Shown here piece by piece: positions 1-9,953 of a DNA stretch of 9,953 nucleotides (the first letter of the stretch is position 1; each line of letters starts with the position of its first letter). The translations under genes were made by a program, and so were the position numbers. Below the pieces are notes generated by a model, which was given only the letters and a program-made list of their open reading frames with translations, was not told the origin of the DNA and ran no database searches. Source of the DNA: an uncultured delta proteobacterium (lineage in GTDB: Bacteria; RBG-13-61-14; DRUE01); contig CAIYYW010000280.1 of assembly GCA_903930515.1 (NCBI GenBank), positions 1-9,953 of the forward strand. Reading direction: 5' to 3'.

Positions 1-72
1 GTTCCGGGCGCGCCGTTCCCCATTGGAAAACCATAGAACCAAGTCCCACGGAACCGCACCAAAAGCCTTGGG

Positions 73-94
73 CGGACGGGCCCAAGCTCGTCCG
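73..94 (+). other. Hairpin upstream of the first promoter
   Basis: Bases 73-81 pair with 86-94 (nine pairs including one G-T wobble, four-base loop CCAA). The following bases (TCTTTGCTT) are only mildly T-rich. It could be a weak terminator for a gene to the left of the window, or a structure near the promoter. A second stem, CTTGGGC at 67-73 with GCCCAAG at 80-86, uses some of the same bases, so the two cannot form together. The rest of 1-103 shows no gene I can support. Confidence 0.3.
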
Positions 95-103
95 GATCTT
101 TGC

Positions 104-132
104 TTGACATTCCCGGGCGGGCGGGATACCCT
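104..132 (+). promoter_or_regulatory. Probable sigma70-type promoter of the response regulator-TPR operon
   Basis: A perfect -35 hexamer TTGACA lies at 104-109. After a 17-base spacer, a weak -10 candidate TACCCT lies at 127-132, keeping the first, second and last consensus bases. Transcription would start near 138-140, giving a leader of about 20 bases before the GTG at 161. The very GC-rich spacer and poor -10 suggest either modest strength or help from an activator. Confidence 0.5.
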
Positions 133-147
133 GAAAAGAAAAGCGAT

Positions 148-153
148 AAGGAG
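148..153 (+). promoter_or_regulatory. Ribosome binding site that decides the GTG start
   Basis: AAGGAG at 148-153 sits seven bases before the GTG at 161. The ATG at 23 in the same frame has no such site and lies upstream of the promoter, so the short GTG-started form is preferred. Confidence 0.75.
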
Positions 154-160
154 TGAAATA

Positions 161-742
161 GTGGCGGATCCCCCAAAATTATATTGTCCGAGTTGCGGAG
201 AAGATGTGGAATATTTTGTGATGGTGAGCGGAGGCGAAGAGTTGGCTCATTGCTCGAACTGCGGGCTGATTTTGCAGAAGGACCAGCCGAAGCAGAAGAA
301 AGAGGCCAAGATCCGGCCGCTGCAATATGTGATCGCCGCGGAGGACAGCCCTCTGCTGTTGAAGAGCATCAGCAATATGATGCTTGAGCATGGGATCACC
401 AAGCAGGTGGAACCGTGCAAGAACGGCGAGGAGTTCATCACCAAGGTCACCGAGCGGCTGAAGGAGAACCAGCCGATCTCACTCACCGTCCTGGATGTGG
501 CGATGCCGATCCTGAACGGGATCAACGCCGCGGTGATCTTCCGCGCCATTGAAAAAGGCTTTGACCGGAAGCGGTTCACGCCGATCCTGTTCTTCACCTC
601 GTATAAATGCGATGACACCTTCAAGAAGGTGTTGAAATACACGGCGCCCGCCAAATACATCAACAAGGGCACGGGGAGCAGCCCGGAGCAATTCGCCGAG
701 CGCCTGCTCCAGGTGGTTTCTCAATTGCTGTTGGAACAATAA
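161..742 (+). CDS. Zinc-ribbon response regulator (CheY-like receiver, no output domain)
   Basis: This is a 193-residue cytoplasmic signalling protein read from GTG 161. Residues 9-34 form a four-cysteine zinc ribbon (CPSC at 9-12, CSNC at 31-34). A charged lysine/glutamine-rich linker follows, and a receiver domain fills about 54-193. The receiver has the acidic pair E61-D62, the predicted phosphorylated aspartate D112 in LDVAMP, the switch threonine T146 in FFTSY and the conserved lysine K169 in YINKG, so it should accept phosphate from a histidine kinase. No DNA-binding or enzymatic output domain follows. Signalling is therefore probably by protein contact, possibly through the ribbon; that is inference. 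No kinase gene is in view. The gene ends 17 bases before the giant TPR gene and probably shares its transcript. An extended form from ATG 23 would add 46 low-complexity residues and is unlikely. Confidence 0.88.
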   Translation: MADPPKLYCPSCGEDVEYFVMVSGGEELAHCSNCGLILQKDQPKQKKEAKIRPLQYVIAAEDSPLLLKSISNMMLEHGITKQVEPCKNGEEFITKVTERLKENQPISLTVLDVAMPILNGINAAVIFRAIEKGFDRKRFTPILFFTSYKCDDTFKKVLKYTAPAKYINKGTGSSPEQFAERLLQVVSQLLLEQ

Positions 743-759
743 ACCAAGAGGATCAGGAG

Positions 760-3700
760 ATGGAGGGGAAAAAGATCGGGGCGTTGCTATCCCCGCTGGG
801 GGAGTTAATTCAGATCCGGCTTCAAGAAATTGAAGCGGTGGCCGGGAACGACCAGGAGAAGCTGGGGTCGCTTCTGGACCGGGAAGCGGAACTCTCCGGG
901 GACCCTGCGGAAAAAGACTGGCTGAGGTTCCGGGCCGGGGAATGCCGGCTGGGTCTGGGCCGGAAGGAAGAGGCCCTTTCCGAATTTGAAAAAATTGAAG
1001 GATGCCGGGAATGGAAAAATCTCGGCCTGATCCTTTTGGAAGAGGCGGCGCGCCGGGGAAATAATCCCGCGGATCTCGCCGAACTCTACCGGAAGCGCGC
1101 GCAGTTTTGCGAGCCGGAACAGGGCAAAGCCCTGAAACTGTTGCGCGCCCGGGTGCTGGCTTTCCAGGCCGGAGACAAGAAAGAAGCGGCGAAAATCCTG
1201 GAAGAGTTGAGCCAGGACGACCCGCTAAACCCGGCCCTGCAATTGACCCGCGCCCAGCTTTACCTGGAAGAAGGGGACTGGAAGAAGCTGGCGGAAGTGT
1301 ATCAGAAGCTGGCCGAGCTGGGCGAATCCAAAAAAGAGAAAGCCGTCGCCATCGCCTATATTTACCGGATCGCGGTATTGATGGAAGGCCGGATCGGCTC
1401 TCCGATTTCGGCTTTGGAATGGTATCAGAAGCTGTTTTCGGAGCCGGAGGCGATCTACGCGCTCTTGCCTGCGATCGAGATCATGGAATCAATCAAGCAG
1501 ACCAAGGAATTGAAAGGGGCGTTGAGCCAGTTGGCCGGGCTGATCTCGGGAGAAGACCCCTGGATGCAGTCCCTGCTTTGTTTCAAACTCAGCCAACTGA
1601 GCGAGCTGGAAGGAGAACCCGAGACCGAGCTTGAGCTTCTGAAAAAAGTGGTGGAACTGGACCCGCAAAACCTTCTGGCCTTGTTCCGGCTGGAAACCAT
1701 GGCGCGTTCCGGAAAAAACCTGGAACTGCTCGCGCAATGCCTGGAAAAAATCTGCCAGACCATGGAACCGGGGGAGCTCAAGCTCAATTACCTGATTGAA
1801 CTGGCCCAGCTTTCCCTGGACCTCCTCAACCAGCCCGAGCAATGCGCCTGGGCTTTGGACCAGGCGGAAAAAATCTCTCCCGAATCGCTCACCCTGACCC
1901 GGCTCCGGCAGTCGCTCTGTTTGAAAAAACGCGACTGGCCCGGACTGATCCGGGCGGTGGACCAGGAACTCCAGTTGAGCGAGGAGCCGAAGGAGCTTCA
2001 GGCCGGCTTCATCCTCAAGGCCGATGTCTGGCTTTACGGAATGGGGGATTACGGACAGGCCCTGGAAGCGTCCCGCCAGGCCCTGGAGATCGCGCCCAGC
2101 CAGTTCACCCTGCTCCGGAACCTGGAGTCGGCTTTGATCAACACCCGGGATTACGAAGGATATTTGAGGATCGTCCTCGCCATGGAAAAACTGGTAGGGC
2201 CCGCGGAAAACAAGGCATATTACGCGAGGAGAAGGGCCTTGATCTCGGAGTTGGGACTGGGCAAGCCCGAGCTTGCGGTCGCGGCCTGGTCCGAGTTCAT
2301 CCGGCTCAAGCCGGATTCGGTTTCCGGCATTTTCGCCCTTGCCCGGATCTTGCGCGAGAAACGGGCGGGAGAAAATTACATAAAAGCGGTTGGGCGGATT
2401 TTGGCGCTCTCTGAATCTGCGGCCGAGTATCCGTACCTGCTCTGCCAATCGGCCTGGGACCTGGAGAATGTCTTCAACCAGACCGAGACCTCCCAGGAAC
2501 TCTGGCAGAAATTTCAAAAAATGAGTTTCCAGACCCCGATCCTGGTCAACGCCCAGCGCAGACTGTTCTACCGCGCGCGCGACTGGGCCAGCCTGAGCGC
2601 GCTCTGGCAGAACCTGTCCGAGCGGGCCAAAGACCCCGGGCTAAACTCGTCCTTCCTGCTCCGGACCGGTTTCTTTTTCGAAACCTATATGGGCGAGCCG
2701 GGAGAGGCCCGGGCCTGTTATGAAAAAGCGCTGCAACAGAGTTCCTTTCCCCTGGTCTATCCCGGCCTGATCGAGCTGGCCTGTTTCAAATCCGACTGGG
2801 AAACCGCCTCCGCGCTGTTCAAGGATTTCGGCCGGAGCATATCCAAACCGCTCCAGCCCGGATGGTTCTGGCAGGCCGCGATGATCGCCTGGGAGAAATT
2901 GCCGGAGAAGAGCGAGCGGGTTTTGGAAGACCTGAAACAGGCCGAAGCGGTCAATGCCGGAACCCTGGAACGGGAAAGCCACCTGGAATTCTTGAGAGCC
3001 CGGGGCGGGCATCCGGCCCTGGTGCAAAAACTGGAAGAATTGATCTCGCTCCTGGAAGAAGCGAAACTGCCGCTCTATCAGATTGAATTGGCCTGGGTCC
3101 TTTCCCGACGCACCGGCCAGAAGGAACAGGCGATGGAGCAATATCTCAAGATGCTCTCGGCCAACGAGCGATATTTGCCGGTGATCCGGGAGCTGGAGAT
3201 GATCGCCCTGGAGGAAAATCATTACCGGCTCCTGGTTCAATCCCTGACCCGGGAACTGCCGCTCCGATCCCAGCCCGAGCTGATGATTTTCATCTATCAC
3301 TGGCTCGCGGAACTTTTTGAGACCGAGCTTAAGGACGACCGGCGCGCCCTGTCCGCGCTGCAGAGCCTGAACAAATTCAAGCCGGACTGGATTCCCGGCC
3401 TGGAGGAACTGCGGAGGATTTACGCCAAGCTCGGGCTTTGGAAGGATCTGGTCAAACTGATCGCCGCGGAAATCCCGCTGATTGAGGAGACCGACAAGAA
3501 ACTGGCCCTGCTCCGGGAGCAGGCGGAAGCGTATCTGGAAAAACTCCACGAGCCGGAATCCGCGGTCGCCGCGCTGCTCTCCGCGCATTCCTTAAGCCCG
3601 GAGGATCCTGGAATACTTTCGGAGTTGGAAAAGCTTTATCAGCAGTTGGAGAAATGGCCGGAGCTTTCCGAAGTGCTGGAGAAGAAGATCCGGCTCGCGC

Positions 3701-6678
3701 GCGACGATCAGGAGCGGGCCCAGTTTGAAGTCCAGGCCGGGGCGCTCTCCGAGGATAAGCTCAAGGATTTTGAAAAAGCCGTCGGCCATTACGAGCAGGC
3801 GGAAAAAATTTTCCCCGAGCAAATCCCGGTCCTGCGCTCCCTGGAGCGTCTGTATCCGGCCTTGAGCCGGTTCCGGGAATGGATCCGGGTCCTGGAAAAA
3901 CTCGCGGCCCTGGTCAAGACCGACCAGGAGCGGGCCGGGATCGTGAACCAGATCGGGAAGATTTATTTTGAAAAACTGAACGAGCCGGACCCTTCAATTG
4001 AAAGCTACTCCCGGGCGTTGAAAATTGATCCGGTCAACCAGACGGCCCTGGAAAGCCTGACAGTCCTGTTCCGGGCCAAGCAGGACGCGCCCAATTTGAT
4101 CCAGGCGTTGGAGAAACTGGCGGAAGTGATCAAGGCCGGAAAGGCGGAAGCGGCCCGGGACTTATACCTGGAAGCCGGAGAGGTCCACGAGCAAAAGCTT
4201 TCCGATGAAAATTCCGCGATCGGCTGCTACCGTAAGGCCGCCCTGCTGGCGCCCCGGGATTTAAGGCCGCTTCAGGCGGAGCGTAATATTTACGAACGCC
4301 GGGGCAGTTGGCAGGAAGTGGCGCGGGTTATGGATCGGGAAGCGAAAATTGTTGACGCTCCGGACCAGAAGAAGGAATTGTTGGCCCGGATCGGAAACCT
4401 CTGGGAGCAAAAGCTGTCCGACCCGGAGCACGCCGCGAATTTCTACCGGTCGAGTCTGGAACTGGATCGGGAATATTTGCCCGCGGTCCGGCCCCTGGCC
4501 GAGATTTATTACCAGGGCAAATCCTTCGGGCCGGCCGAGCCGCTCTACCAGATTTGGATCCGGCATTTGAACCAGGAGCCGGAAGCCCTTCGTGCCAAAA
4601 TCCTTTTCGCATTCGGAATGGTGGAGGAGAAGCTCGGGAAAACCGCTCCGGCGGTGGAATCTTATGAGCGGGCCTGCCAGTCAAAGAGTCATTACCTGGA
4701 GCCGCTGGACCGGCTGTTTGAAATCTACCTTTCCCAAAACGAAAAGGTCAAGGCCGAGGGAACCGGCCGCGAACTCTCCCTGACCCTGGGCGAGCTCCAG
4801 GAAAAGGAGCGATTGTTCCAGGTATTATCCCGGATGGGGACGCTCGAGAATGAGCTGGGCAAGCCCGACCCGGCCATTGATTTTTTGGAACAGGCCCTCA
4901 GCCTCAAGCAGACCCACTATCCTTCCTTGCGGCTGCTGGTGGATTTATATCGGGGCAAGAAGAACTGGCCCAAGACCCTGTCCAGCTATGACCGAATGAT
5001 CCGCGCGGCCGGCAGCCCGGAACTGATTGCGCAGGGGCTGATTGAAAAAGGAGAAGTTCTGGAAACCCAGTTGGATCAAAGGGAAAGCGCGGTCGCCCAT
5101 TTCCGGAAGGCGGTTGAGGTCAAGTCGGATTCGCTTTCCGGATGGAGGCATCTGGCCGAGGCTTTGCTCAAGGACAAGAAATGGAAGGAATCCGCGGAGG
5201 CCTATCTTCAGATCATCAATTTGGAGCCGAGCGCGGAGCGGAAGGTTGAGGATTATTACAACCTGGGGCTGATCTACCGGGACGGCTTCGGGGACCTGCT
5301 TCGGGCCAGGGACAGCTTTGAGAAATCCCTGGCCATCAACAAGACCCACCTCCCCTCAATGGAAGCCATCCTGACTCTCTATCTCAAGGAGAAGAAATGG
5401 GACAACTACATTGAGATGAGCCAGCGCTTCATCTCCCTGATCCCCAAGGCCGAGGAAAAAAGAATCGCCCCGCTCCATTTCCAGCGCGCCCAAGTCTTCC
5501 GTGATTTCCTGGAAAACCGGGAAAAGGCCGTCTCCGAGTTCCAGGCCGTGCTCCGGATGGATCCCTCATTCCTCCAGGCCCGGATTGAGTTGGCCGAGAT
5601 TTACGCCAAGAACACGGAAAGTTACCCGCTGGCGATCCGGGAGCATCAGACCATTTTGGACCAGAAATTATTCCGGATTGAAAGTTACCGGCAGATGGGA
5701 CAGCTTTATGAATTCCTGAACCGGCCGGACGAGGCCTTCTGCGTTTACCTGGTGATGGAAATGCTCAAGGCGGCCAACCGCGATGAAGATATGTTCTTAG
5801 ACGCGCACCGGAAGGAAGTCAACCGCACCAGCAACAAAACCCTGGCCCCCGAGAGTCATTACTGGCTGCTCTCCCCGGCCCAGACCCATGGGCACTTGTT
5901 GGAGATCATCGCCGAGTTGGGGGATTATCTGGTGGAATTCTTCCCGCCCCAATTGGAAAAGTTGGGCGCGAGCAAGACCAACAAGGTCCCGGCCAATTCC
6001 ACCACGGGGATCAAGAAGCTGACCGACGAGCTGGCCCGCAACCTGGGGGTGGCCGAGTATGATTTGTACCTGGTGTCCCAGCAGGCCGAGCCGAAGATCG
6101 CCGGGACCAACCCGCCTTCCTTGATCCTGAGCGCGGATTGGCTCGCCAAGTTTCGGACCGAGGAGCAGAGGTTTCTTTTGGGCAAATGGATGGAGCATCT
6201 TCGCTTAAGGCACTGGACCATTTTCAATAACCCGCTCCCGGAGGTGTTCCGCGCCGCGATGTTATTCGCCTGGCTGATCGTGCCGGAGATGAAAATCCCG
6301 GGGATGAGCGAGGATGAGATGGAACGGCAGGCCAAGCCCATCAAGCGGGCGGTGCCGAGAAAGGTGAGATCGCAATTGGAGCCCAAGGCCAAGGCGCTCG
6401 CGCAAGAGGGCCTGCCCAAGGATCCGGCCGCGTGGCAAAAGGGAATCGCCCTGACCGGGAACCGGGCCGGCCTGCTTCTGGCCAATGACCTGCCGGCCTC
6501 GGTCTCGGCCCTGCTCAAGACCGACCCGCGCCTGCGCCAGGTCAATTTCCATGATTTGCAGGACCGGGTGCCGATCCTGGAGCAAAGCGAGGAGGCCCGG
6601 GATCTGGTGCGCTTTTTTGTCAGCGAGCCCTACTTCTCCCTGCGCAAGCGCGCCGGCTTCAGCCTTTTCAGCGCCTGA
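760..6678 (+). CDS. Giant TPR-repeat scaffold protein with C-terminal pseudo-M48 domain
   Basis: A 1972-residue protein without signal peptide or clear membrane helix, so probably cytoplasmic or membrane-associated through partners. Start ATG 760 is preceded by AAGAGGA at 746-752 with seven-base spacing. Residues about 135-1655 form a TPR solenoid with a steady 72-74 residue repeat, each unit a double TPR. Typical unit features are a leucine near position 30, an aromatic near 40 and an A-Y/F-A-L-x-P helix pattern at the start. TPR solenoids bind other proteins and assemble complexes. Residues about 1750-1860 resemble an M48 metallopeptidase core, but the zinc motif reads KWMEH (1809-1813), so proteolysis is not expected. 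A last helical region (about 1895-1972) contains NRAGLLLAND (1901-1910) and a RFFVSEPYFSLR-like end. From memory, this C-terminal layout recurs in large TPR proteins of myxobacteria and relatives. Exact role unknown; scaffold with its operon partners is inferred. Confidence 0.85.
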   Translation: MEGKKIGALLSPLGELIQIRLQEIEAVAGNDQEKLGSLLDREAELSGDPAEKDWLRFRAGECRLGLGRKEEALSEFEKIEGCREWKNLGLILLEEAARRGNNPADLAELYRKRAQFCEPEQGKALKLLRARVLAFQAGDKKEAAKILEELSQDDPLNPALQLTRAQLYLEEGDWKKLAEVYQKLAELGESKKEKAVAIAYIYRIAVLMEGRIGSPISALEWYQKLFSEPEAIYALLPAIEIMESIKQTKELKGALSQLAGLISGEDPWMQSLLCFKLSQLSELEGEPETELELLKKVVELDPQNLLALFRLETMARSGKNLELLAQCLEKICQTMEPGELKLNYLIELAQLSLDLLNQPEQCAWALDQAEKISPESLTLTRLRQSLCLKKRDWPGLIRAVDQELQLSEEPKELQAGFILKADVWLYGMGDYGQALEASRQALEIAPSQFTLLRNLESALINTRDYEGYLRIVLAMEKLVGPAENKAYYARRRALISELGLGKPELAVAAWSEFIRLKPDSVSGIFALARILREKRAGENYIKAVGRILALSESAAEYPYLLCQSAWDLENVFNQTETSQELWQKFQKMSFQTPILVNAQRRLFYRARDWASLSALWQNLSERAKDPGLNSSFLLRTGFFFETYMGEPGEARACYEKALQQSSFPLVYPGLIELACFKSDWETASALFKDFGRSISKPLQPGWFWQAAMIAWEKLPEKSERVLEDLKQAEAVNAGTLERESHLEFLRARGGHPALVQKLEELISLLEEAKLPLYQIELAWVLSRRTGQKEQAMEQYLKMLSANERYLPVIRELEMIALEENHYRLLVQSLTRELPLRSQPELMIFIYHWLAELFETELKDDRRALSALQSLNKFKPDWIPGLEELRRIYAKLGLWKDLVKLIAAEIPLIEETDKKLALLREQAEAYLEKLHEPESAVAALLSAHSLSPEDPGILSELEKLYQQLEKWPELSEVLEKKIRLARDDQERAQFEVQAGALSEDKLKDFEKAVGHYEQAEKIFPEQIPVLRSLERLYPALSRFREWIRVLEKLAALVKTDQERAGIVNQIGKIYFEKLNEPDPSIESYSRALKIDPVNQTALESLTVLFRAKQDAPNLIQALEKLAEVIKAGKAEAARDLYLEAGEVHEQKLSDENSAIGCYRKAALLAPRDLRPLQAERNIYERRGSWQEVARVMDREAKIVDAPDQKKELLARIGNLWEQKLSDPEHAANFYRSSLELDREYLPAVRPLAEIYYQGKSFGPAEPLYQIWIRHLNQEPEALRAKILFAFGMVEEKLGKTAPAVESYERACQSKSHYLEPLDRLFEIYLSQNEKVKAEGTGRELSLTLGELQEKERLFQVLSRMGTLENELGKPDPAIDFLEQALSLKQTHYPSLRLLVDLYRGKKNWPKTLSSYDRMIRAAGSPELIAQGLIEKGEVLETQLDQRESAVAHFRKAVEVKSDSLSGWRHLAEALLKDKKWKESAEAYLQIINLEPSAERKVEDYYNLGLIYRDGFGDLLRARDSFEKSLAINKTHLPSMEAILTLYLKEKKWDNYIEMSQRFISLIPKAEEKRIAPLHFQRAQVFRDFLENREKAVSEFQAVLRMDPSFLQARIELAEIYAKNTESYPLAIREHQTILDQKLFRIESYRQMGQLYEFLNRPDEAFCVYLVMEMLKAANRDEDMFLDAHRKEVNRTSNKTLAPESHYWLLSPAQTHGHLLEIIAELGDYLVEFFPPQLEKLGASKTNKVPANSTTGIKKLTDELARNLGVAEYDLYLVSQQAEPKIAGTNPPSLILSADWLAKFRTEEQRFLLGKWMEHLRLRHWTIFNNPLPEVFRAAMLFAWLIVPEMKIPGMSEDEMERQAKPIKRAVPRKVRSQLEPKAKALAQEGLPKDPAAWQKGIALTGNRAGLLLANDLPASVSALLKTDPRLRQVNFHDLQDRVPILEQSEEARDLVRFFVSEPYFSLRKRAGFSLFSA
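1387..5725 (+). repeat. Protein-level tandem array of about 20 double-TPR units, 216-bp period
   Basis: Within the giant TPR protein, units begin near residues 210, 282, 354, 426, 498, 570, 642, 712, 783, 855, 927, 999, 1071, 1145, 1217, 1290, 1364, 1436, 1508 and 1582. Nearly every step is 72-74 residues; the 642-783 stretch is the least regular. Units start with motifs such as EKLHEPESAV, EKLNEPDPSI, QKLSDPEHAA and NELGKPDPAI. A looser copy near residue 135 precedes them. The units are clearly related in protein but diverged in DNA, so this is an old, selected array and not a recent duplication. Confidence 0.8.
6007..6340 (+). other. Degenerate M48 peptidase-like domain inside the TPR protein
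   Basis: Residues about 1750-1860 follow the M48 pattern: LTDELARNLG, then AGTNPPSLILSADWL (1781-1795), then RTEEQRFLLGKWMEHLRLRH (1799-1818). Against the family pattern of a hydrophobic strand, an acidic helix start and HExxH followed by xxxxH, the first zinc histidine is K1809 and the catalytic glutamate is W1810. H1813 and H1818 line up with later family histidines. The fold looks kept and catalysis lost. No computed alignment was possible. Confidence 0.6.
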
Positions 6679-6682
6679 AGCA

Positions 6683-8041
6683 ATGTCCAAAGTAAAATGG
6701 GTCTTGCTCGCCTTCTTCGGACTGGCGCTGATCTTTTTTATTGACCGACCCTCCCTCTCCGGTCCGTTCGTTTACGACGACCTCCCGGACCTCGCGCTCA
6801 ATCCGAGAATCCAATCCGGCCTGCTTAACGCGCTTTCTTACAACCCGTTCCGGGCCGTGGGGTATTTTTCTTACTGGGCTCAATTCCAGATGGGAGAGAC
6901 GGCGGGATCGGCCCGCGATTTCCGCTTATTCAACCTGATCCTGCATTGGCTGAATGGAATCCTCCTGATCCGGCTCGCGATCTTGCTCGCGCCGAACAAA
7001 AAATATTTCCCCGCCCTGGCCGGGCTTTGGTTCTGGCTCAACCCTATTTTTCTGGAATCCATCAACCTGATCTCGGGACGGTTTGACCTGTTCGTTTCCT
7101 TTTTCTATCTGGCCGCGCTTTCCTGCTACCTCGCCCCCGGCCGAGGCGCGTTTATGCGTCCGGGATTTTTCCTTTGCCTGATCCTGGCGCTTCTTTCCAA
7201 GGAAATCTCCATCACCATCCCCATGGCCGCTCTGCTCTTGAGCCGATCCCGGGACCAGCGGGTGAAACGGCTGGAAGTTCTCGCGGGGACCGGGATCGTG
7301 GCTGTCTTCATTCTGCTCCGGCTCTTCTGGCCGATGGTGTTCGCCAAAAACGCCGGCCTGATCCCGGCCTGGCACATTTATTTTTTGAACCAGAACTGGA
7401 TCCTCTGGTTCGCGGCCCTCAAAACTCTTTTCCCGGTCCATCTGAATTTTGACTATGCCCTGGGAAGCCATCCGGCCTGGGGAGGAATTTTGTTCCTGTT
7501 CAACCTGATCCTTTTTTCCGGCATCGCGCTCCGGTCTTTGCGCAAATCCCGTCCGGGGGGGATGCTCCTGATCTATCCCCTGATCTATCTCCCGCTCGCG
7601 CTGATCCCGCTCGCGGACCCGTTTAGGGAAAGCCGGCTTTATCTGGGGTCCGCCTGGCTGATCCTGATCGCGGCGCTCCCGGCTTCAGCTCTCGCGGAAA
7701 AGCGGAAAGGCCTGACCCTGGTTTTTTTTGCGCTGGCGCTGGCTTGTCTGGTCTCGCTCGGCTCGCTCCGGGCGCGGGCCTGGCAAAGCAATGAAAGCCT
7801 CTGGAAAGACGCGGTGAAAAAATCTCCGGGGAAATTCCGGCCGGTGTTCAATTTCGCCAACGCCCTTCGGAGAAAGCTGGACCTGGACCGCGCGGAGCAA
7901 GCTTACCGATGGGCGCAACGGATTGATCCGGGGAATCCCAAAGTGGACGCGAACCTTTATTTGATCGAGCAGGCTCGGAAGAATTCGGAGCAAATAGAGC
8001 GGCTCAGGGATTCGCCGCAATCAAACCCGGAAAGCCCCTGA
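6683..8041 (+). CDS. TMTC-like multi-pass membrane protein with C-terminal TPR (GT-C type glycosyltransferase candidate)
   Basis: A 452-residue inner-membrane protein with roughly ten hydrophobic segments, beginning with one at 5-20. Family-type marks are the acidic pair D32-D33 in FVYDDLP just after the first segment, LILHWLN (85-91), ESINLISGRFDL (125-136), LSKEISITIP (171-180) and ESRLYLG (316-322). The soluble tail (about 365-452) holds roughly one TPR (FRPVFNFANAL, then AEQAYRWAQRIDPGN). This layout matches bacterial relatives of TMTC proteins in the GT-C superfamily, which transfer sugars from lipid carriers to proteins; the paired acidic residues are the expected active-site region. 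The acceptor here is unknown. ATG 6683 follows the TPR gene's stop by four bases and has only a weak GAAG in front, so translational coupling is likely. An in-frame ATG at 6485 would overlap the TPR gene by nearly 200 bases with unrelated sequence and is rejected. Confidence 0.75.
   Translation: MSKVKWVLLAFFGLALIFFIDRPSLSGPFVYDDLPDLALNPRIQSGLLNALSYNPFRAVGYFSYWAQFQMGETAGSARDFRLFNLILHWLNGILLIRLAILLAPNKKYFPALAGLWFWLNPIFLESINLISGRFDLFVSFFYLAALSCYLAPGRGAFMRPGFFLCLILALLSKEISITIPMAALLLSRSRDQRVKRLEVLAGTGIVAVFILLRLFWPMVFAKNAGLIPAWHIYFLNQNWILWFAALKTLFPVHLNFDYALGSHPAWGGILFLFNLILFSGIALRSLRKSRPGGMLLIYPLIYLPLALIPLADPFRESRLYLGSAWLILIAALPASALAEKRKGLTLVFFALALACLVSLGSLRARAWQSNESLWKDAVKKSPGKFRPVFNFANALRRKLDLDRAEQAYRWAQRIDPGNPKVDANLYLIEQARKNSEQIERLRDSPQSNPESP
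8004..8041. other. Convergent overlap of two operons
   Basis: The membrane-protein gene stops at 8041 on the plus strand and the hydrolase gene stops at 8004 on the minus strand, so their last codons overlap by 38 bp. The only inverted repeat seen nearby is GCGGC 7999-8003 with GCCGC 8014-8018 (ten-base loop). It is followed on the minus strand by a weak T-rich stretch, a poor terminator at best. Confidence 0.8.
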
Positions 8042-8663
8042 CCGCATGGAGAATCTCTGGTTCGGACCCCACCCAGAAATGATCCGCGGATTTGATCACC
8101 ATAAGTTTTGAGTCCGATCCCCCGGACGGCAGCAGCGGCTGATATTGCTGGCGCCTGAAAAACTGGTCCCGGCCTCCGGAAAGGATCAGGGTCGGAACCC
8201 GGAGCGGAATGACCCTGCGCAAAGTTTCGTCTTTATTGATCCCGGACTCCGGCAGCATCGGGCTGACCAGGATCAAGGCAGTGGGCTTCAGGCCTTTGGC
8301 GATGGCGGATAAAACGACCAGTCCTCCGAAGGAATACCCGCAAACAATCACCCGGTCGGGATTTGCCTCTGGGTCGGTCCGGATGAATTCGCAGGCGGCA
8401 ACCAGGTCTTGCGCTTCTCCATCAATTTCGCCGTAACTCCCGCGGCTTTTGCCCACACCCCGGAAGTTGAAGCAAAGCGTGAGAAAGCCGGAACCGCACA
8501 GGGCGTCCCTGAGCGCGTACACCACATTATTGTCCATTGATCCGCCGAAAAGCGGATGCGGATGCGCGACCACGGCAACGGGAAAAGGCCCTTCCCCTTT
8601 GGGCGGGCTGACCATTCCTTCCAGCCGGAGCTTCCCGCTCTTAAACTCAATCCTTCCCGGCAT
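8004..8663 (-). CDS. Alpha/beta hydrolase, COG2945-like
   Basis: A 219-residue soluble serine hydrolase from ATG 8663. The N-terminal AHPHPLFGGSMDN (33-45) is the signature of the small alpha/beta hydrolase group COG2945, and FNFRGVGKSRG (65-75) follows. The nucleophile is S111 in GYSFGG (109-114). The predicted acid is D166 in SGGRDQFF and the catalytic histidine is H195 in SADHFWVG, so the triad looks complete. Length is normal for the family, with no signal peptide. The substrate is unknown: relatives are usually annotated only as hydrolases or esterases. The start lies one base after the TAA of the upstream gene, with GGAG at 8674-8677, so the two are cotranscribed and probably coupled. 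The longer in-frame start at 8792 would run inside the neighbour and adds residues unlike the family. The 3' end overlaps the convergent membrane-protein gene by 38 bp. Confidence 0.88.
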   Translation of the reverse strand: MPGRIEFKSGKLRLEGMVSPPKGEGPFPVAVVAHPHPLFGGSMDNNVVYALRDALCGSGFLTLCFNFRGVGKSRGSYGEIDGEAQDLVAACEFIRTDPEANPDRVIVCGYSFGGLVVLSAIAKGLKPTALILVSPMLPESGINKDETLRRVIPLRVPTLILSGGRDQFFRRQQYQPLLPSGGSDSKLMVIKSADHFWVGSEPEILHAVRGFPGLIAANP

Positions 8664-8664
8664 C

Positions 8665-9953
8665 TTATTTCCGCTCCAATTCCCCCATCCGTTCCGCCAG
8701 CCGGAACAGGCCGGGAAAGCCCAGGAGCGGAACCAGCTCCGAGGGCGCCAGGAACAGGTTGGAAAAAGGAGTCCGGATCCGGGGATACCCAAGCTGGGAG
8801 GGTTCCAGCTTGAGATACTGGTGGAATGAGTTGGTCTCCTGAGCTCGCTTCAAGCGCTCGTTTTTCAACCAGGGAAAAAGCGCCGCCAGGGTTTTGCCCA
8901 GGTCATCCTCGTGCAAGGGCTTGACCTCGCCCTTGCGCCGGCCGTAGCAGATTGAGACCAGTTTAGACGCCCCGGTCAGGGGCCGGGCGCAAATCAAAAA
9001 TTCCTTCGGGTCTTCCGTCCGGCCGGAAATCCAGACCGCCCGGTCCGCCATTGCCTCGGGCCAGAACTCCGCTTTCAGCTCGTAATAATGAGTGAAGATG
9101 ACGCTCCGGGGAAACCGCTCGGCCAGCGATTTAGCCACCCGGCTCTCCCGGTCTTTTTCGCTGAGCAATTCCAGCACCGATCCCGGACCGGCGAAGAAAA
9201 TGTCCGCTTGAATTTTTCTCCCGGACCGGAACTGAATTTCCTTGAGTTCTTTCCCCTCCACCCCGAGCGACACCGGCTCTTCGCTCACCAGGCTCTTGCT
9301 CGCGTTCAACATTTCAAAAAAACCGGTCCAGCTTTCCCTCCCCTCGGCCATCCCGGCCTCTCCGGAAAGCAAATACCTCCAGAGCAAAGCCGCGCTGAAG
9401 AGCGGACCGGCCTCCTGGAAATGCGGGGAAAATATTCTCAAGGGCGCGATCAGGATTTCGCACAACTCGCGGGAAAGTCCGCTCTCGCCGATCAAGTTCC
9501 CGATCGTTAATTCCTGGGCCGGGAGCTTCCGCGCCCGCGAAAGCGTCCTGAGAAAATATTCCGCGCTTTTCCGACTGGAAATGATCGGAAATTCCCGGAC
9601 CCGTTCCTCAAATTCCTTGCCCAGCCGGACCAGCCGGTCCAGGGCGGAGGAAAACTTTTGGGCTTCCCCGGCCAGGTCCCGTTTAAAGGAAAAATCGCGG
9701 CGGGGCCGGTCCCAGAAGAAGTCCAGGCGGTATTTTTGGGAGATGATCTGGAAGTCGGGGATATAGGAAGACTTTTCTTTTTTGAGCGGAAGGCCGATCC
9801 GTCCGCAGATGATCTGAGAGCGGAAGGGGTCGAGCAAAAGCGCTCCGGGAGCGTCTTCCAGGTTCTGCTTGTTTGCCGCCACCCGGACCTTCTTGCCCAG
9901 CAAATGCAGGCAAGCGGCAAAGACCAGGTCGGAAAAATTGTCCGCCAGAATCA
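8665..9953 (-). CDS. FAD-dependent desaturase/amine-oxidase-like protein, 5' end cut off, cofactor motifs degenerate
   Basis: The frame is open to the window edge, with 428 residues visible, so the true start lies beyond 9953. The visible N-terminus (ILADNFSDLVFAACLHLL, then GKKVRVAA) fits the first strand-helix-strand of a Rossmann FAD site in spacing. The GxGxxG glycines read A, N, D, and the acidic residue ending the second strand is alanine. The middle has a typical GKELKEIQFRSGRKIQADI segment (strands around a substrate/FAD domain crossover). The end, NLFLAPSELVPLLGF, parallels the family's C-terminal FAD contact, with PS where GD is usual. The order of parts suggests the phytoene desaturase/amine oxidase superfamily, but cofactor binding may be lost. 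It is the upstream partner of the hydrolase gene, one base apart. Family assignment is moderate and the function unknown. Confidence 0.55.
   Translation of the reverse strand, partial: ILADNFSDLVFAACLHLLGKKVRVAANKQNLEDAPGALLLDPFRSQIICGRIGLPLKKEKSSYIPDFQIISQKYRLDFFWDRPRRDFSFKRDLAGEAQKFSSALDRLVRLGKEFEERVREFPIISSRKSAEYFLRTLSRARKLPAQELTIGNLIGESGLSRELCEILIAPLRIFSPHFQEAGPLFSAALLWRYLLSGEAGMAEGRESWTGFFEMLNASKSLVSEEPVSLGVEGKELKEIQFRSGRKIQADIFFAGPGSVLELLSEKDRESRVAKSLAERFPRSVIFTHYYELKAEFWPEAMADRAVWISGRTEDPKEFLICARPLTGASKLVSICYGRRKGEVKPLHEDDLGKTLAALFPWLKNERLKRAQETNSFHQYLKLEPSQLGYPRIRTPFSNLFLAPSELVPLLGFPGLFRLAERMGELERK

Follow-up and report, generated by a model that had tools for sequence, protein, structure and literature searches.

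Which kind of module terminates the 1972-residue tetratricopeptide repeat (TPR) protein encoded in a 9,953-nt stretch of DNA from an uncultured delta proteobacterium (contig CAIYYW010000280.1, hereafter the window)? The Pfam search of this protein returned TPR repeats only and nothing past residue ~1690, and searches of Pfam, NCBIfam and the PDB sequences yielded no usable match for the C-terminal domain. Judged from profile comparisons, predicted structures and trees, this domain is a non-peptidase homolog of the M48 metallopeptidases in which the catalytic residues have been lost, and it probably caps a cytoplasmic TPR scaffold at its end and serves as a protein-docking head. The gene and the predicted parts of the domain are as follows.

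760..6678, + strand: TPR gene, an open reading frame (ORF) of 1972 aa comprising a TPR solenoid and a C-terminal degenerate M48 domain
760..5859, + strand: TPR solenoid, residues 1-1700 (Pfam TPR_8 5.9e-31, TPR_2 8.5e-25), with helical pairs in the AlphaFold2 (AF2) model
5860..6675, + strand: predicted degenerate M48 (gluzincin-fold) domain, residues ~1701-1972, ~270 aa, based on the AF2 model, the BepA alignment and the hidden Markov model (HMM) link
6007..6045, + strand: residues 1750-1762, the helix that opens the M48-like core (DSSP of the model), aligned to the M48 helix before beta1
6061..6132, + strand: three strands, beta1 1768-1772, the short edge strand beta2 1779-1781 and beta3 1787-1791
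6157..6204, + strand: former active-site helix, residues 1800-1815
6184-6186, + strand: K1809 at the position of the first zinc His
6187-6189, + strand: W1810 at the position of the catalytic Glu
6196-6198, + strand: H1813 at the position of the second His
6424..6483, + strand: helix matching the M48 ExxAD helix, residues 1889-1908
6556..6654, + strand: C-terminal helices, residues 1933-1965, in the position of the M48 HPx4R plug, with the plug residues missing

The link to M48 was obtained with a family profile, the source of which was an alignment of 42 diverse TPR-fused members (A2). Comparison of this family with 32 M48 proteins by hhalign covered 155 columns, from the helix through ExxAD, with a score of 39.5 (P 5.2e-5); the maximum score among the controls (100 block-shuffled, 100 column-shuffled and two reversed) was 26.5. 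A subset of the family without proteins resembling the scaffold protein GltI gave a P of 1.3e-5. The GltI-like subset alone scored weakly (19.1) with unchanged register, as did the BepA-like subset of the M48 proteins (16.0). It is the family as a whole that gives the signal, and HtpX/Ste24-like M48 proteins show it more strongly. Additionally, a wide search with the family profile returned short ORFs that represent PF01435 peptidases, in which HELGH occupies the aligned position and the motif ADRAGLL..D lies in the second half. When the family HMM was rerun over 302 ORFs, the HELGH-bearing PF01435 proteins were matched in exact register with 25-54 bits; the E-values of the A2 HMM against PF01435 proteins went down to 8e-15 at Z=10000, and the reversed sequence set gave zero matches. 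Moreover, the window domain alone matched the M48 protein L176 at an E-value of 8e-4. On these sequence grounds, the resemblance to M48 is more than chance.

Template-free AF2 modelling of residues 1601-1972 of the window protein resulted in a predicted local distance difference test (pLDDT) score of 92.7 and a predicted template modelling (pTM) score of 0.90, and the domain of a homolog (L107), modelled alone, reached 89.0 and 0.87, respectively. Comparison of the window model with the PDB by VIA-align placed gluzincins in all of the top 16 chains, ahead of unrelated TPR rows, with Z-scores of 9.0 for BepA (153 residues, 4.7 Å), 8.5 for 3c37, 7.8 for jannalysin and 7.1 for BlaR1. With the L107 domain, almost all of the first 41 rows were metallopeptidases or their folds, including 3c37 with a Z-score of 9.2 over 171 of 274 residues and HtpX with 8.4. 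With both models, structures of the M48, M56 and minigluzincin types thus ranked highest. A gluzincin core is predicted to be present in the C-terminal domain, and the weight of the structural case lies in the agreement among the top rows of both lists along with the independent sequence result. A preliminary description of this DNA had proposed a pseudo-M48 metallopeptidase at the end of a TPR solenoid; the sensitive profile comparison indeed matched M48, and the comparison of predicted structures matched M48 folds, BepA being the first of them.

The remnants of the active site could be assigned residue by residue. K1809, W1810 and H1813 occupy the HExxH positions, because the M48 profile-profile alignment is gap-free in this region and sets EQRFLLGKWMEHLRLRH on ELAGVMAHEIGHIVSRH. 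The preliminary description had quoted the segment T1800-E-E-Q-R-F-L-L-G-K1809-W1810-M-E-H1813-L-R-L-R-H1818 exactly, had claimed that it keeps the M48 spacing and had placed K1809 and W1810 at the first zinc His and the catalytic Glu, all of which is borne out by this alignment; the stretch AGTNPPSLIL, likewise assigned to M48 there, corresponds to the NAFxxPGG strand. The interval proposed for the feature, 6007-6340 (residues 1750-1860), does contain a real part of it, but the whole domain is larger and extends over ~5860-6675. The notion of a dead protease is supported as well: in the window protein the first and third zinc ligands, the catalytic Glu and the HPx4R plug are all missing, and HExxH is absent from the active-site helix in all 42 homologs, the window reading K1809-W1810-M-E-H1813.

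The first zinc His position is occupied by Arg or Lys in 34 of the 42 members, and the position of the catalytic Glu mostly by Ala. The second His position is unconserved, and H1813 as an apparent zinc ligand is probably incidental, because His is found there in only 3/42 relatives. At the third-ligand position the window reads A1897-L-T-G-N1901, while Glu has been kept in 18/42 relatives. In the corresponding helix A1897 replaces the ligand Glu and G1900-N1901 replace Ala-Asp, whereas active M48 relatives carry AEFSADRAGLLVAQD. In the region of the HPx4R active-site plug, as defined for M48 in PMC7950410, residues 1940-1952 of the window protein read LEQSEEARDLVRF, and no conserved His was detected in the family. 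Conservation across phyla was observed for T1783, P1785, F1805, D1910 and S1955, and R1902 and R1962 are present in 42/42 members. The three-strand region aligned with NAFxxPGG includes a conserved turn, T1783-x-P1785-P1786.

A single-sequence scan of the genome contigs detected no relatives. The domain was nevertheless found to be common to a protein from the same order (L006, 48% identity), to a second phylum (L008) and to most Myxococcota. Among the latter, a phylum recognised through its named loci, 175 of 193 genomes contain at least one domain copy, typically two to four, and many of the bearers are ORFs of ~1650-1970 or ~3500-4200 aa. A wide survey resulted in matches in 30/336 genomes, a count that mixes true M48 peptidases with TPR-fused members.

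Phylogenetic trees were calculated with FastTree at seven settings (144-240 columns, supports being local Shimodaira-Hasegawa-like values). In the tree of 97 sequences, all 52 TPR-fused domains formed one clade (support 0.82-0.999). It is joined (0.92-0.96) by two proteins without TPR in which the first His has been lost, L172 (RAVAH) and L177 (REVAH), and the combined clade was recovered in all runs, including one with masked motif columns. The HELGH-bearing ADRAGLL group is located outside this clade; since the family HMM served to pick the 'near' M48 proteins, the separation from other M48 proteins is partly due to selection. The simplest reading suggests that the zinc site was lost first and that the fusion to TPR repeats occurred afterwards, because L172 and L177, where the HELGH motif has become RAVAH and REVAH, respectively, adjoin the TPR-fused clade. 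A separate loss of the first His inside the active group is represented by L178 (RELGH). Together, the M48 relatives without TPR encoded by L178 (1285-2325, with a C-terminal zinc ribbon), L177 (1093-2610, with an RDD domain) and L172 (1117-2187) are further undescribed pseudopeptidases. The window's own genome contains a second degenerate M48 sequence in another locus (L004, G000:C304, ORF 2-1207; PF01435, 29.8 bits) that is followed by TPR repeats, the order known from BepA, and its active-site helix reads LLGTQTAHIIYRD.

A known protein was identified among the longest bearers. The 4123-aa ORF L009 was aligned over the whole domain, and the next gene encodes GltJ (NF033761, E 2.7e-173). As the GltJ gene adjoins L009, the bearers of ~4100 aa are GltI (AgmK), the TPR scaffold protein of the Myxococcus gliding machinery. 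In 20 of the 27 genomes with a GltJ match, such a match and a domain-bearing ORF lie at most 2 kb apart and share the same strand. The GltI protein of M. xanthus, MXAN_4863, comprises 4132 aa and was listed as a TPR-only protein lacking both a signal peptide and transmembrane segments (PMC3169522, Table 1). A review from 2026 describes it as a large intracellular scaffold that, with GltG, connects the motor to MreB (PMC13104615), and another paper terms it transmembrane (PMC9120999). The window protein itself is not GltI, since it is shorter and its genome contains no GltJ above the model cut-off. Neither a description of the domain nor a record of it in GltI was found in the literature, subscription papers and most preprints being outside reach. 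Along with the homology, the fold prediction, the loss of catalytic residues and the wide conservation, the link to GltI is a direct result of the analysis.

The role that these data point to can be outlined as follows. The domain most likely descends from the group of soluble M48 proteins marked by ADRAGLL..D and lost its zinc site before or at the fusion to TPR repeats. It would now close a cytoplasmic TPR scaffold as a rigid, non-catalytic cap at its end; the N-terminus of the window protein, MEGKKIGALLSPLGELIQIRLQEIEA, contains neither a signal peptide nor a hydrophobic stretch, as judged by eye from the sequence. A partner segment would be held by the retained edge strand with its T-x-P-P turn and by the emptied cleft, which would be lined by the basic residues K/R1809 and R1902, and the TPR solenoid would bind other partners. 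In active M48 enzymes, the strand beside the site captures the substrate by strand addition, and the edge strand of BepA also binds substrate for a non-proteolytic, chaperone-like assembly function (PMC8423444). A docking head is favoured because the three strands and the T-x-P-P turn have been kept while the site has turned basic; the conserved edge-strand and former-cleft positions fit binding but fall short of proof. Since the same dead-protease cap is present on GltI, the domain is probably a docking module and not an enzyme. The docking role is the most likely one; we infer this function and the existence of a partner, as well as the absence of zinc and of proteolysis in vitro.

Other explanations of the domain were weighed against this role, a structural cap and a general holdase being the foremost. 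If the domain only closed the hydrophobic end of the TPR solenoid as a structural cap, or served for dimerisation, and bound no other protein in either case, this would agree with the location at the extreme C-terminus of long TPR proteins and with the pTM of 0.90 for the model of the last repeats and the domain. A single capping helix, however, suffices for most TPR proteins, the conserved T-x-P-P turn (1783-1786) lies at the former substrate strand, and the retention of a 270-aa fold across phyla suggests an additional role, so that we regard a mere cap as unlikely. It is rather improbable that the dead cleft binds unfolded clients generally, in the manner of a BepA-like holdase. BepA also joins M48 and TPR, is the best structural match and has an edge-strand-dependent assembly function beside proteolysis (PMC8423444), but it is a periplasmic protein with M48 first, whereas in the window protein the order is inverted and a signal peptide is absent, and GltI, the bearer that has been characterised best, acts as a machine scaffold and not as a chaperone (PMC13104615). 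Residual enzymatic activity at a metal site that has moved, or at a different catalytic centre, might be sought in H1813, H1818 and E1812 of the window protein and in the third-ligand Glu retained by some relatives, but the prevalence of Arg or Lys at ligand 1 and of Ala at the catalytic position, together with the lack of any conserved set of His, Cys, Asp or Glu as a replacement, makes it very doubtful. Finally, the resemblance to M48 might be a matter of chance and the fold unrelated, as PF01435 gave no hit above the Pfam gathering cut-off for the window protein and none for any of the 42 members even at an E-value of 10, and the Foldseek E-values were insignificant; in view of the in-register HMM matches to HELGH-bearing M48 proteins, the empty reversed set and the gluzincins in the top rows with two models, this is hardly credible.

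Several observations weigh against the favoured explanation as a whole. Foldseek yielded no E-value below 0.001 with either model, and the structural claims therefore rest on the VIA-align rows and the HMM evidence, with Z-scores of 7-9 being middling by the aligner's own calibration. No binding partner was identified for the C-terminal domain, and the neighbours of domain-bearing genes vary between phyla, so that no single partner is implied. Moreover, the invariant R1902 and the near-invariant D1910 are also present in active ADRAGLL-type peptidases, and their conservation may thus reflect fold stability and not a new binding site.

In the window, the TPR gene is located between two genes of the same orientation, with intergenic gaps of 17 bp upstream and 4 bp downstream.

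2..742, + strand: upstream gene, zinc ribbon and response-regulator receiver (PF00072 1.8e-8), 5' end open
6683..8041, + strand: downstream gene, TMTC-like multi-pass membrane protein with TPR, weak Pfam match only

The zinc ribbon of the upstream gene product reads CPSC...CSNC and is fused to the receiver; a copy with 71% identity is encoded directly upstream of the TPR homolog in a related genome (G002). A zinc-ribbon partner common to both systems, the GltJ ribbon on the one hand and the receiver gene of the window on the other, was considered, but the GltJ model matches omit the window gene and the proposal is only an idea. The product of 6683-8041 is O-mannosyltransferase-like, and its TPR region is C-terminal. 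Further downstream, the minus strand contains an alpha/beta hydrolase gene (8004-8792; PF12146 2.4e-14) as a long ORF overlapping the end of a 428-aa ORF (8665-9951) that has no match in Pfam or NCBIfam; the listed TTG is probably too early as the start of the hydrolase.

Different genes were seen by eye next to other bearers. In three genomes of the L008 phylum (L141, L143, L144), the TPR/pseudo-M48 gene is followed by GT9 heptosyltransferase-like and heptose-kinase-like genes, a gene order that is absent from L142. In some Myxococcaceae (L135, L136), a ~1700-aa paralog is located directly after an apparent histidine ammonia-lyase gene, and convergent genes for thymidylate kinase and a CinA-like protein lie downstream. 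As the contexts of GltI, of the window and of the L008 phylum differ, the cap is common to scaffolds of different systems. A tentative and more far-reaching proposal is that an inactivated M48 protein was captured once, was fused to TPR repeats and became the docking head of giant cytoplasmic scaffolds over several phyla, which in GltI might contact the motor, the cytoskeleton or a regulator and in the lineage of the window might serve an envelope machine under the control of the neighbouring zinc-ribbon receiver protein.

A domain that is near-universal in Myxococcota and also present at the end of GltI has no Pfam entry and was annotated until now merely as the tail of TPR proteins. With a dead M48 fold recognised in it, GltI gains a defined module that can be deleted, mutated or used as bait. 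The direct HMM link to one M48 group, the inactivated intermediates, the near-universality in Myxococcota and the presence of the domain in GltI are new.

Compared with known systems, the closest sequence relatives are the ADRAGLL-type M48 proteins (PF01435; for instance L176, L181 and L184; ~290-410 aa), which share with the window domain the succession of a helix, three strands, the active-site helix and the ADRAGLL..D helix, but keep HELGH and AE.SAD and have no TPR fusion, whereas the window carries K-W-M-E-H and A-L-T-G-N. GltI/AgmK (MXAN_4863) resembles the window protein as a giant TPR protein with this C-terminal domain and without a signal peptide (PMC3169522); it differs in its length of ~4100 aa, as opposed to 1972 aa, and in its location beside gltJ, the neighbours in the window being the zinc-ribbon receiver and TMTC-like genes. 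BepA/YfgC likewise combines an M48 fold with TPR, but is periplasmic, has a signal peptide and a catalytic zinc and carries M48 N-terminally and TPR C-terminally, the reverse of the order in the window protein. The minigluzincins, selecase (M95) and BlaR1 (M56) share the core fold of the domain models (Z 5.5-7.8) but represent peptidase families with intact HExxH and without TPR.

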